Shown here: positions 23,814 through 37,546 of the stretch, piece after piece
How the letters are laid out: each line of letters begins with the position of its first letter
Position numbering within the stretch: the stretch's first letter is position 1
Assembly (NCBI GenBank): GCA_937949545.1
Contig: CALEDR010000040.1
Span: 1-38,108 of the forward strand
DNA length: 38,108 nt
Direction of reading: 5' to 3'
Origin: an uncultured Phycisphaerae bacterium
GTDB taxonomy: Bacteria > Planctomycetota > Phycisphaerae > Sedimentisphaerales > Anaerohalosphaeraceae
Notes under the pieces: generated by a model
What the model was told of the DNA's origin: nothing
The model's database searches: none
The model's input: only the letters and a program-made list of their open reading frames with translations
Translations under genes and position numbers: made by a program

Positions 23814-24770
23814 TCATTCCTTGGACCAGATTCGAGTATTCAGGTTCAGGTCCTCGACAATCCCCACCGCCAGCTGAACATCTCCAAAATATTCCTGGAT
23901 GGTCTGAAAATCCAGCAGACTTCGAAAGAGTTTCGGCTCAAACAAAGACCGGTCGAACCAAACAGCCAGATAGAGTTTGGAATCGACAAAAGACAAAAAG
24001 ATTCGCCGCCCGGTCTTTTGGCGAAATTGAAGAATGCGTTCCATCAGGTTGGGGGAAAGAATATAACGGGCTTCAATCGGGTCCTGCCCATACACGACAA
24101 ACTCTTTTTCAAACCGGGGGTCTTCGAGAGCAATCAGATTTGGACGAGCCGGATTCAGAGATTGGAGGGTTTTGCCGAAGCGTCCCAACAGCTTTTCGGC
24201 TGTATCCGGAAAAACAAAGGTTTGGGTTCGAAAATGCTTGTGAAAATCGGCCATGAAAAAAAGGCCGCGAAAAATCGTGTGAACAGTCGTCGTCTTACCG
24301 CTTCTCCGGATATGCTGGGCCAAAATCTCCGAAAACTCTATCTGGGTCTTGCCGACCCGTCCCCAGACTCGATCATCCCCCTTATAAAGGTTAGACCTTG
24401 TCTGAAACAGCTCAGACCGAAGAAAATCTTCCGGAGCGACTTTTCCTTTGGGATCGTACTGCAGGCCGGGCTCCAGAAACCAGATCAGACGGCGGATAAT
24501 CTGCTCTTTGAAATCTCTTTGATAGCCCCATCCCGAAATCACGAGAAACCCGACGAAAAGAAAGAGCAGCACCAACATCGGCACCATCACGGTCGCCGGC
24601 TCTTTCGTGACGGCCAATAAAGGCCCCGTCAAAAAAAGTCCGCCCCCCAGAAGCACAAGCAAACCGATTCCCAACCCTGCCAAAATCTGCCGACGCTTTT
24701 TCTCCAGAACCTCCAAATCGGGAAGAAGGGTTTGTTCGTAAAAGGTTTTGATTTCCTCAAGGGTTTTCAA
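23814..24770 (-). CDS. DUF3137 membrane protein, LemA partner
   Basis: A 318-residue protein that must start at a non-ATG codon; TTG 24770 fits, overlapping the lemA stop by 14 nt, with a purine-rich GGCGGAAGA upstream. Residues 1-26 are a helix ('TFYEQTLLPDLEVLEKKRR'), two membrane helices lie at about 29-50 and 61-82, and a soluble domain fills the rest, with 'IFRGLFFMADFHKHF' near the centre, typical of DUF3137. Proteins of this family are regularly encoded beside lemA, but no activity is established. It is convergent with the TonB receptor gene; the 54-nt gap has a GC hairpin but no proper terminator. Confidence 0.78.
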   Translation of the reverse strand: MKTLEEIKTFYEQTLLPDLEVLEKKRRQILAGLGIGLLVLLGGGLFLTGPLLAVTKEPATVMVPMLVLLFLFVGFLVISGWGYQRDFKEQIIRRLIWFLEPGLQYDPKGKVAPEDFLRSELFQTRSNLYKGDDRVWGRVGKTQIEFSEILAQHIRRSGKTTTVHTIFRGLFFMADFHKHFRTQTFVFPDTAEKLLGRFGKTLQSLNPARPNLIALEDPRFEKEFVVYGQDPIEARYILSPNLMERILQFRQKTGRRIFLSFVDSKLYLAVWFDRSLFEPKLFRSLLDFQTIQEYFGDVQLAVGIVEDLNLNTRIWSKE

Positions 24771-25343
24771 TCTTCCGCCCCCCTGCTTCTGTCTGACCGA
24801 ATGCGGCCTTCGGAACCCCCCGCTCGGACGCTTCGATTTGAAAGAGTTCCTGAGGCTCAAAACCAAACAGCGCCGCCAGCAGATTCGTTGGAAACATCTG
24901 GACCGCATTGTTGTAATCGGTCACAGCGGCGTTAAACGCCCGCCGTGCCGCCGATATTTGTTCTTCCAGCTCATTGAGCGTCCGCTGCAGATGCAGAAAA
25001 TTCTCAGAGGCCTTCAAGTCCGGATACCGTTCCGCAACACCGCGAACGACACCGACCAGCTGCGTCATCAGGTTGTCGAGGTTTACTTTCTGCTCCATCG
25101 AAAGCCCCCCCTCGCCTGTGCACGCAGTTCGCTGACTTTCTCGAACAGCTGCCATTCGTGCTCAGCGTACCCCTTGACCGCCGCAGCGAGGTTCGGCACG
25201 AGGTCCCACCGCTTTTTGAGCATCGCGTCCATCGTCCCGAAGATATTGCGGATTTGGTTGCGTTTGGAAATCAGAGAATTGTATCCCCCAATTCCAAACA
25301 TCACCAGCAAAAGCACAGGCAGCTCAAAAAGCCACAAACACAT
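24757..25343 (-). pseudogene. lemA: lemA, interrupted by a -1 frameshift at a poly-G tract
   Basis: The two halves of a LemA protein lie in different frames. The first, from ATG 25343 (GGAG 7 nt upstream), has the membrane helix and 'YNSLISKRNQIRNIFGTMD', 'LKKRWDLVPNLAAAVKGYA', and runs into a stop shortly after the break. The second carries 'RYPDLKASENFLHLQRTLNE', 'AARRAFNAAVTDYNNAVQMF' and 'PTNLLAALFGF', the conserved C-terminal half. The frame changes at seven G (plus-strand C, 25105-25111); one more G would restore a full LemA of about 195 residues. This may be a true mutation, a sequencing or assembly error, or slippage that restores the frame in some transcripts. The DUF3137 gene downstream is intact. 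Confidence 0.85.
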
Positions 25344-25377
25344 CAGCAGCTCCTTACTTGTTCTGCAATCTCGAGAA

Positions 25378-25406
25378 ACCATACCGCCTTTTTCTTACTC
25401 CGTCAA
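25378..25406 (-). promoter_or_regulatory. Sigma-70 promoter of lemA-DUF3137
   Basis: Minus strand TTGACG, a 17-nt spacer, then TATGGT, about 35 nt before the lemA ATG. A terminator-like hairpin (25408-25427) abuts the -35 box. Confidence 0.5.
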
Positions 25407-25407
25407 T

Positions 25408-25427
25408 AAAAAGAGGGGATTCCCCTC
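25408..25427 (-). terminator. Hairpin with T run just upstream of the lemA promoter
   Basis: Minus strand GAGGGG, a 3-nt loop and CCCCTC, then TTTTT. It could stop antisense transcription entering from the aconitase side, or act as an operator since it touches the lemA -35 box. Confidence 0.5.
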
Positions 25428-25473
25428 GCGGCTGTTTCAGAAATCTTTTGAATCTTCTTAGCAATTCTGATTC

Positions 25474-32306: not shown

Positions 32307-32738
32307 TCAGGAGGACGTACCGGATGAAGTTCCGGCCGAAGCCGGTTCTTCTGGATTTTTGGTGTCATAATATTTCAGGGCCTCGCGAACCATCGGTTTA
32401 AATTCTTCTTCGAGCTTCCACGGCTTGGTAATGAACTTGTAGATGTGCCCTTCATTAATTGCCGTCAGCAAGGTTGTAATCTGCGTATAGCCGCTGAGAA
32501 CCATACGAACTATATCCGGATACAGCTCCCGGACCTTTCGGAGGAGCTCCAAACCGTTCATCTCCGGCATCCGCATATCGGTTACGACTACATGGACTTT
32601 GTTTTTACTAAGGATCTCGAGGGCTTCCGCCCCACTGTTGGCAAACAGGCAACGATAGGGTTCATCCATCAGACCTCGCCGCAGTGACTGCAAAAGCCGC
32701 ACTTCATCATCGACAAATAACACCGTTGGATTTTCCAT
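32307..32738 (-). CDS. Single-domain response regulator
   Basis: A 143-residue receiver protein without an output domain. Acidic pair Asp10-Asp11, phosphoacceptor Asp54 in 'VVTDMRMPEMNG', Ser82 in 'LSGY' and Lys105 in 'ITKPW' are intact, so it should accept phosphate. The 'GYTQITTLLTAINEGHIYKF' segment resembles receivers of RpfG-type regulators, whose HD-GYP part is absent here. The last 20 residues are Ser/Thr/Gly-rich. AGGTGAG precedes ATG, and it lies 8 nt after the histidine kinase gene. Likely the output or shuttle of the operon. Confidence 0.88.
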   Translation of the reverse strand: MENPTVLFVDDEVRLLQSLRRGLMDEPYRCLFANSGAEALEILSKNKVHVVVTDMRMPEMNGLELLRKVRELYPDIVRMVLSGYTQITTLLTAINEGHIYKFITKPWKLEEEFKPMVREALKYYDTKNPEEPASAGTSSGTSS

Positions 32739-32746
32739 ATCTCACC

Positions 32747-33649
32747 TCATATTTCAACGTCATGGATTACTGATTTTGATACTCGATCGGTATTGAATTG
32801 TTTCTCGAAAACCTGTTTGGTTGGAATTTTCGGAGCTTCTTTGGGCAGTTTGATGATAAATTTCGTGCCTTTTCCGACTTCGCTGTCCACCAGGATTTGC
32901 CCCCGATGCTTATGGACGACAATATCATAAGAGACGCTCAAGCCCAAGCCGGTGCCTTTTCCCGCCGGTTTGGTTGTAAAGAACGGGTCAAAAATCTTGG
33001 ACTGAATCTCCGGCGGGATACCGGGGCCGTCATCTTCAATTTCACAGATCACTAACTCGGATTCCTGCCGGGTCCGAATCCAGATATGGCCGGGACCCTG
33101 ACGATTCTGCGAACGAATGGCCTGCGCCGCATTGACCAGAATATTCAGAAAGACCTGATTAAGCTGGCCGGGATGGCAATGGATTTGGGGGAGTGTACCC
33201 AGTTCCGTCACAACCTCCACATCATACTTGATTTCATTGCGGGCGACCACCAGGGTGCTGCGAATGCCTTCATTCAGGTCATAATCGCACATTTCTGTGC
33301 ACTGGTCAATTCGGGAGAAATCCCGCAGACTCTGAATAATAGTCGTCACCCGCTGAAGCCCTTCCTGCGACTCTGCGAAGAGATCCTGAATGTCTGTCAG
33401 GATAAAATCGATTTTCTTTTCCTGACGATAATGCCGGATTTCCAGCAGTTTTTCCAGCACTGCCGGCTGCGGATTTTTTTCGAGGATTTGGCCTAACTGT
33501 TCATACAGATCCAACAGGCCTTTCAGTTTCGCCAGATAGGTTTGAAGGGTCTCGAAATTGCTGGCCACAAATCCGACGGGCGTATTCATCTCGTGAGCAA
33601 CGCCGGCAGCCAAATGGCCGATGGAAGCCATCTTCTCCGTCTGGACCAT
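32747..33649 (-). CDS. Histidine kinase catalytic portion, in frame with the upstream receiver
   Basis: A 300-residue piece starting at ATG 33649 with no real ribosome site. HisKA box 'ASIGHLAAGVAHEMNTP' has His19; a long helical segment with many charged residues (about 50-100) sits within the dimerisation region; the ATPase has 'LNQVFLNILVNAAQAI' (N box), 'DDGPGIP' (G1) and 'GKGTGLGLSVSYDIV' (G2). The frame continues upstream past the ATG through 'KALEELAKAHKQRQQAQAQ', a coiled coil normal for such kinases, to a TAG at 33713-33715, beyond which the receiver is in the same frame. The natural reading is a receiver-kinase fusion split by this TAG. Confidence 0.82.
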   Translation of the reverse strand: MVQTEKMASIGHLAAGVAHEMNTPVGFVASNFETLQTYLAKLKGLLDLYEQLGQILEKNPQPAVLEKLLEIRHYRQEKKIDFILTDIQDLFAESQEGLQRVTTIIQSLRDFSRIDQCTEMCDYDLNEGIRSTLVVARNEIKYDVEVVTELGTLPQIHCHPGQLNQVFLNILVNAAQAIRSQNRQGPGHIWIRTRQESELVICEIEDDGPGIPPEIQSKIFDPFFTTKPAGKGTGLGLSVSYDIVVHKHRGQILVDSEVGKGTKFIIKLPKEAPKIPTKQVFEKQFNTDRVSKSVIHDVEI

Positions 33650-33712
33650 CTGAGCCTGTGCCTGCTGGCGCTGTTTGTGGGCTTTGGCCAGTTCTTCGAG
33701 GGCTTTTTGCGT

Positions 33713-33715
33713 CTA
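33713..33715 (-). other. In-frame TAG separating receiver and kinase
   Basis: The TAG stands between 'ALERKKNHL' and 'TQKALEELAK' with both sides in one frame. A single C-to-T change from CAG (Gln) would create it. It is the only TAG among 31 gene ends examined in the window (18 TAA, 12 TGA). Confidence 0.8.
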
Positions 33716-34174
33716 CAGATGATTCTTCTTCCGCTCGAGAGCAAAATAAATCGACTTGGTCAGAAAGGCCTGGTTGAATTCTCCTTTGGTCAGATAATCC
33801 TGGGCTCCGTAGGACATCGCCGTCAAATCTGCGGCTTTTTCATTCTCGCCGGTAATGACAATGATGGCCGTTGCCGGATACTGCCGATTGACCTGATCCA
33901 CCATCTCCAGGCCATCCCCATCCGGCAGATGGAGGTCCAGGAGCAGCACGTGAAACGGATGCTGAGCCAATTGTTCGAGCATAGCCTGTTTGGTTCCGAC
34001 ACAGACCATGCGGTCATTTGCCCGTCTCAATCGGCTTTTTTCGAGCATTTTCTTCAAAAGGGTCCGGCAGGTCGGATCATCATCGACAATCAGAACAGAA
34101 AGACAGCGGGTCTGTGGATTGGCCGAAGAATTATCGGCCAGATTGCTCCGCTGCGGAGTACTTCTCTGTTCCAT
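33713..34174 (-). CDS. Response regulator receiver, likely N-terminal part of a receiver-kinase
   Basis: A 153-residue receiver with AAGGAG 10 nt before ATG 34174. Acidic cluster 'VDDD' (30-33), phosphoacceptor Asp80 in 'LLLDLHLPDGDGLE', Thr108 in 'VITGENEKAADLT' and Lys130 in 'DYLTKGEF' are present. A 26-residue polar N-terminus precedes the domain. The end 'AFLTKSIYFALERKKNHL' is the start of the linker helix that in related proteins leads straight into a HisKA domain. The gene begins 14 nt after the hybrid kinase gene. The kinase follows in frame after the TAG. Confidence 0.85.
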   Translation of the reverse strand: MEQRSTPQRSNLADNSSANPQTRCLSVLIVDDDPTCRTLLKKMLEKSRLRRANDRMVCVGTKQAMLEQLAQHPFHVLLLDLHLPDGDGLEMVDQVNRQYPATAIIVITGENEKAADLTAMSYGAQDYLTKGEFNQAFLTKSIYFALERKKNHL

Positions 34175-34188
34175 GGGGTGTTTTCTCC

Positions 34189-36754
<2,566 letters not shown>

Positions 36755-36765
<11 letters not shown>

Positions 36766-37546
36766 TGGATGCTTTCTCCTGAATTACTCGACGAGCCAAC
36801 TTCAGCAATTGCGAACTGATTTTCAGACCCTGTTTTTCGGCCTGAGTCAGATGAATTTCAAATCGAACCTTGTTCTCTTCCTTCACAAAGACAATGATGC
36901 CTTTGGCGTTAAGAAACCCCTCCGCTTCTCCCACCGTCAGGATAGGAAGCGATTGGACCTGCTGCAGATGTTCCGCCAGCCAGTTCTTTTCGGAATTGCA
37001 GTAAAACAGAACGTGACAGCCGCGAATTGTCTCCCCCTGTTCATGCCAATACTGCTCGACAGCCGTCTGTTTGTCGGAAACCTTTTTGACATAAGCCGCC
37101 ATTCCGGGGACAAAAATCAATTTCAGAGGGCGGTCTTTGATTTTCTTGTCCATCAGCGGCTCAAAGGCCTTTCCGAACGGATTCTCTCCGACAATGCCGA
37201 TTTGCATCGGCGGTGGAGACGAATCATTCCCTCCTCCATTCTCCATCTTTTCCGGAGGCCATTCGGTAAACTTCATAAAATTGTAAATAAAAGCCGCTTT
37301 CACCTGATACTCCACTTCCTCCGGCGACTTGCCCGATTCTGTCATCGCCTGGCTTAATAAAATCCCTCCCGGCAAGCCCACCGGCACATCTGCTGGAACC
37401 CACGTCCCTTGCAACAGCCCGAATAAGAAAATCCCCCCCCAAACTATCCCAGATTGCCTTCGCGCAGCGGCAAAAGCCGCTGCGGAAACACCGTCTGTCC
37501 TTGGGTGTTGGTTCCAGTCAGGTTTTAAGCATCGCTTTGACGGCAT
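36755..37546 (-). CDS. yfiR: YfiR-family (DUF4154) periplasmic protein
   Basis: A 263-residue protein with a YfiR/HmsC-like domain (about 78-255): 'YQVKAAFIYNFMKFTEWP' opens it, 'GFLNAKGIIVFVKEENKVRF' then 'EIHLTQAEKQGLKISSQLLK' closes it. A hydrophobic segment (about 33-50) is the signal or anchor; the first 30 residues are unusually long and basic. Eight G on the coding strand (plus-strand C, 37433-37440) encode Trp-Gly-Gly inside that segment. In Pseudomonas, YfiR binds the periplasmic CHASE8 part of YfiN and restrains cyclic di-GMP synthesis. Here the overlapping downstream gene is a CHASE8-like histidine kinase, so it probably controls a phosphorelay. That pairing is inference. Confidence 0.85.
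37433..37440 (-). repeat. Eight-base homopolymer within the signal segment of the YfiR-like gene
   Basis: Eight C on the plus strand (G on the coding strand) at codons 36-38. A slip would frameshift the gene ahead of its functional domain. The frame is intact as given. Confidence 0.65.

Follow-up and report, generated by a model that had tools for sequence, protein, structure and literature searches.

The receiver-kinase gene of the window, the term used here for the whole analysed stretch of 38,108 nucleotides (contig C40, one of 52 contigs in a 2.84 Mb assembly), is interrupted by an in-frame TAG in the linker between its two halves. The relatives have CAG here, and the TAG probably marks a nonsense allele, recent in origin, of an accessory receiver-kinase fusion. 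Rather than a new reading of the genetic code, the most likely explanation is an ordinary nonsense mutation that arose recently in a dispensable gene.

The gene cluster is located on the minus strand (Table 1). Receiver and kinase occupy one frame between positions 34174 and 32747, and the TAG at 33713-33715 is the single stop between them, so that the earlier note's claim of a same-frame pair split by TAG alone was borne out. Pfam profiles place Response_reg before the TAG and HisKA and HATPase_c after it; the three domains share one frame, yet the TAG prevents an uninterrupted ORF. The linker is conserved in relatives. Five kinase motifs are intact in the window copy as well as in its two orthologues G003 and G004. 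Past the ATPase domain, the C-terminal end (32747-32800) of the kinase is unlike that of G003 and G004 and differs in about the last 10 residues.

Table 1 Features of the interrupted receiver-kinase locus in the window
Feature	Position	Strand	Basis
YfiR/HmsC-like (DUF4154) gene, head of the cluster	36755..37546	-	Pfam/domain scan, gene order in relatives
Membrane hybrid kinase CHASE8-HAMP-HisKA-HATPase_c-REC-Hpt, upstream of the receiver	34189..36765	-	Domain scan
Receiver half, 153 codons, start ATG at 34174	33716..34174	-	Response_reg, E 4e-22
TAG within the linker, in frame; sense codon CAG in both orthologues (G003, G004)	33713..33715	-	Sequence, alignment
Kinase half, 321 codons, HisKA and HATPase_c, stop TGA at 32747-32749	32750..33712	-	Pfam
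ORF from the first ATG past the TAG, 300 codons, sole obvious candidate for a separate kinase	32747..33649	-	3-base Shine-Dalgarno match
Stand-alone (second) receiver gene	32307..32738	-	Domain scan; gene order in congeners

A search with the receiver as query against 98 genomes, the window's own included, gave matches at E 1e-12 or better in 62 of them. Close orthologues were found only in G003 and G004, both from the same genus as the window genome, with receiver identities of 79% and 78%, respectively, and a kinase half that is 86% identical to the window copy in each case. The orthologous open frames comprise 475 codons in G003 and 474 codons in G004. Both of the same-genus orthologues found (2/2) have CAG at the TAG site, and each is a single receiver-kinase ORF of 465 residues. 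Response_reg, HisKA and HATPase_c were all detected in the G003 protein, and the sequence of the G003 locus is contained identically in locus L038 of a Planctomycetota metagenome assembly record.

Distant homologues show the same arrangement. Receiver and HisKA lie in one frame in all ten scanned, and HATPase_c was found in nine; the ten were chosen from 27 such loci, and the tenth frame runs to the end of its locus. Since all ten are fused, the fused receiver-kinase is regarded as the usual state in the order. Among those scanned, the closest by linker and kinase is found in G077, with a kinase identity of 55%. Some distant homologues were flagged with a stop inside the receiver match, e.g. 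TAA in G061 and TGA in G056. The comparison of the codon in close relatives, suggested in the earlier note, hence returned a sense codon, CAG, and the possibility raised there of a CAG-to-TAG change breaking a fused gene is supported by this codon, by the one long ORF in both orthologues and by the fusion in 10/10 homologues. Relatives with two separate genes, which the same note had named as the contrary case, were not seen among those compared.

In the genomes G001 and G002, the YfiR-like gene and the hybrid kinase gene are found in the same place, and the next conserved gene follows directly after the hybrid kinase. Genome-wide, neither gave a hit to the receiver at the threshold of E 1e-12, and about 9 kb at the syntenic site yielded no match to the receiver or the second receiver at E 1e-8. 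Because of this absence at the same site, the module of receiver-kinase and second receiver is considered accessory. Between congeners, gain or loss affects both genes jointly, at a conserved position behind the YfiR-like/CHASE8 hybrid kinase pair (32307-34174 in the window; compared with loci L123 and L124). G005 also lacks a receiver match; its contig ends inside the YfiR-like gene, and it is therefore uninformative on the module site.

Stop codon use was determined with a simple codon-usage gene caller in the window and 20 further stretches of 20 kb each (438 kb in total). The 252 sampled genes end in TAA (118), TGA (95) and TAG (39); outside the window, TAG ends 38 of 233. murF and tig are among the genes terminated by TAG, and the hybrid kinase of the cluster itself terminates with TAG in G001, G002 and G003. 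Release factor RF1 is complete, with 363 residues and a profile score over the cut-off. A TAA reported inside the RF1 match was rejected as a sign of a broken gene, since the match merely extends into the stop of the full-length ORF. Among 46 tRNA genes found with the Rfam tRNA model and ARAGORN, none has a CTA anticodon, although an unusual tRNA outside the model would escape this search; the earlier note's idea of an amber suppressor tRNA thus found no support among these genes. The best match to PylS of the pyrrolysine system reached 26 bits against a cut-off of 178. Taken together, TAG stop use, the intact RF1, the tRNA content and the low PylS score rule out genome-wide recoding of TAG, and the codon is a normal stop in this genome.

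The earlier note had described the linker codon as the only TAG among the gene ends of the window. This is correct for the called genes, as 18 of the 18 others (19 genes called) end in TAA or TGA. It does not hold for 13 additional ORFs picked by hand, which include a doubtful one terminated by TAG besides 12 with TAA or TGA; the former figure of 30 other gene ends was not obtained again. The doubtful ORF (24748-25461, plus strand, 237 codons) was rejected by the gene caller. At the outside rate of 38/233, finding no TAG among 18 other genes has a chance of about 4%, or 0.5% for 30 genes. TAG is scarce locally and is no special codon.

An open coding frame past the stop was found for 36 of the sampled genes (17 TAA, 10 TGA and 9 TAG). 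The share is higher for TAG (9/39) than for TAA (17/118) and TGA (10/95), which leans towards TAG splits. Among these 36 genes, the window case has the top coding score between the stop and the next ATG (4.4). In the three other TAG cases with the farthest next ATG, the upstream genes code for MurF, trigger factor and DctM, which are separate families, and the downstream frames in two of the three are MraY and ClpP, likewise separate genes. The remaining five of the nine TAG cases were inspected as short strings only.

The kinase half yielded omega values of 0.079 against G003 and 0.070 against G004, compared to 0.058 between G003 and G004, with overlapping bootstrap limits (95% limits of 0.044-0.118 for the values of 0.07-0.08). 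For the receiver, values of 0.076 and 0.102 against G003 and G004 and of 0.128 between the two were obtained. Relaxed selection past the TAG, which is expected only for an old loss, was not seen in the kinase half against G003 and G004, nor was a second stop or a frameshift found up to the domain end. A loss, whatever its age, should by now have left initial traces; the intact state of the kinase half hence points to a stop of recent origin, to continued production of the kinase or to a wrong base. Synonymous divergence from G003 and G004 was higher in the kinase half (1.06 and 1.23) than in the receiver (0.69 and 0.64).

The first ATG past the TAG follows 21 codons downstream and has a best Shine-Dalgarno match of 3 bases, compared to 5 bases upstream of the receiver ATG (AAGGAG region). 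The first ATG of 155 sampled genes is preceded by a match of at least 4 bases in 93 cases and of at most 3 bases in 62, while 1377 internal ATGs have at least 4 bases in 225, 3 bases in 604 and 0 bases in 548 cases. By this measure the kinase ATG looks like an internal ATG. A weak site is nevertheless compatible with translation of the kinase, because 62 of the 155 genes also have a match of 3 bases or fewer. The earlier note stated that the kinase lacks a ribosome site of its own, and a strong one was indeed not found.

Three other readings have to be weighed against a recent nonsense allele. Programmed or regulated read-through or recoding of the TAG, with a short receiver and a complete receiver-kinase as its two products, as the earlier note had proposed, is very improbable. 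The open frame and the conserved kinase half agree with it, and nothing further speaks in its favour. TAG is an ordinary stop in 39/252 sampled genes including murF and tig, the three other TAG cases examined have upstream genes of separate families, and RF1, tRNA and PylS results all point the same way. The stop is not conserved in the two orthologues, and the 100 bases after it fold like shuffled sequences (z -0.11), giving no sign of a stimulating RNA fold. For E. coli reporters, PMC11126739 gives a mean TAG read-through of 0.03% at 37 °C, and values as high as 0.80% at 25 °C in rich medium. Literature on in-frame stops in Planctomycetes assemblies was not found in a search too narrow to gauge novelty. 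An error in base calling or in the consensus of the metagenome assembly, with an intact gene in the population, is unlikely and at the same time clearly more plausible than read-through. The window is one of 52 metagenomic contigs, and the full conservation of the kinase half would fit such an error. In addition, contig C42 of the same bin begins with a second copy of the 3' end of prfA and of the gene after it, which matches C35 at 85% identity over 902 bases, and this second copy indicates that a related genome was present in the sample or bin. C42 itself (C42:1-900, locus L109, compared with the end of C35, locus L110) is probably a mis-binned contig of that related genome. The difference at the TAG site is however a single clean substitution without frameshift, the adjacent codons also diverge from the relatives as normal divergence would give, and the assembled sequence bears no sign of a chimaera at this site.

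On a par with an assembly error, and likewise doubtful, is a working split gene, in which the receiver would end at the TAG and the kinase would be translated separately from the ATG 21 codons downstream, by restart or internal initiation. A kinase starting there would keep its DHp and ATPase domains whole. That ATG stands in frame shortly before the conserved kinase core and is also present in G003 and G004; the kinase half is under purifying selection, and weak or missing Shine-Dalgarno matches at first ATGs are common in the sample. On the other hand, the 3-base match is typical of internal ATGs, the stretch before the ATG still reads as the conserved linker-coding sequence of the fusion, and no compared relative has two separate genes. 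The broader proposal that the fused receiver-kinase has turned into a working two-protein system, with a lone receiver and a kinase made alone or by slight read-through, is given the same small likelihood.

Under the preferred reading of a recent nonsense allele, the TAG would be real in the cells and recent in origin. Ribosomes would make the 153-residue receiver, presumably stable on its own, and then stop at the TAG; the full receiver-kinase would no longer be produced in useful amounts, with most likely little or no kinase. The affected gene would belong to a two-gene accessory module, receiver-kinase plus receiver, placed behind the conserved pair of YfiR-like gene and CHASE8 hybrid kinase. 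Judging from gene order and domains, the receiver-kinase of intact relatives probably acts under the control of the membrane hybrid kinase, whose Hpt domain, encoded upstream, could donate phosphate to the receiver half; the kinase half could signal to the downstream receiver, a possible output partner. The loss appears to be tolerated in the genus, since the whole module is absent in two congeners.

If the gene indeed carries an ordinary nonsense allele, this matters mainly for annotation, in which the gene is best entered as an interrupted receiver-kinase. Should kinase production continue, the locus would represent the fission of a signalling gene just after the event, with the fused ancestral form alive in sister species. 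A functioning two-protein system would mean control of the kinase by the receiver in trans and at an altered ratio, i.e. gene fission at its first step.

Compared to known systems, the locus is closest to cytoplasmic receiver-HisKA-HATPase_c fusions with an N-terminal receiver, as in G003 and G004, with which it shares domains, order and neighbourhood at 78-86% identity per half. In contrast to these fusion kinases, the linker of the window copy contains a TAG, and ordinary translation of this copy cannot yield a single joined protein. Pseudogenes with a single nonsense codon likewise have one in-frame stop at a sense codon of the orthologues in an accessory gene; the window gene differs in lacking further visible decay, so it would be a very young example, with a stop read from the assembled sequence. 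Genes with programmed read-through also keep one frame open on either side of a single stop, whereas the stop in the window is not conserved, no stimulating fold was seen after it and no suppressor tRNA was found.
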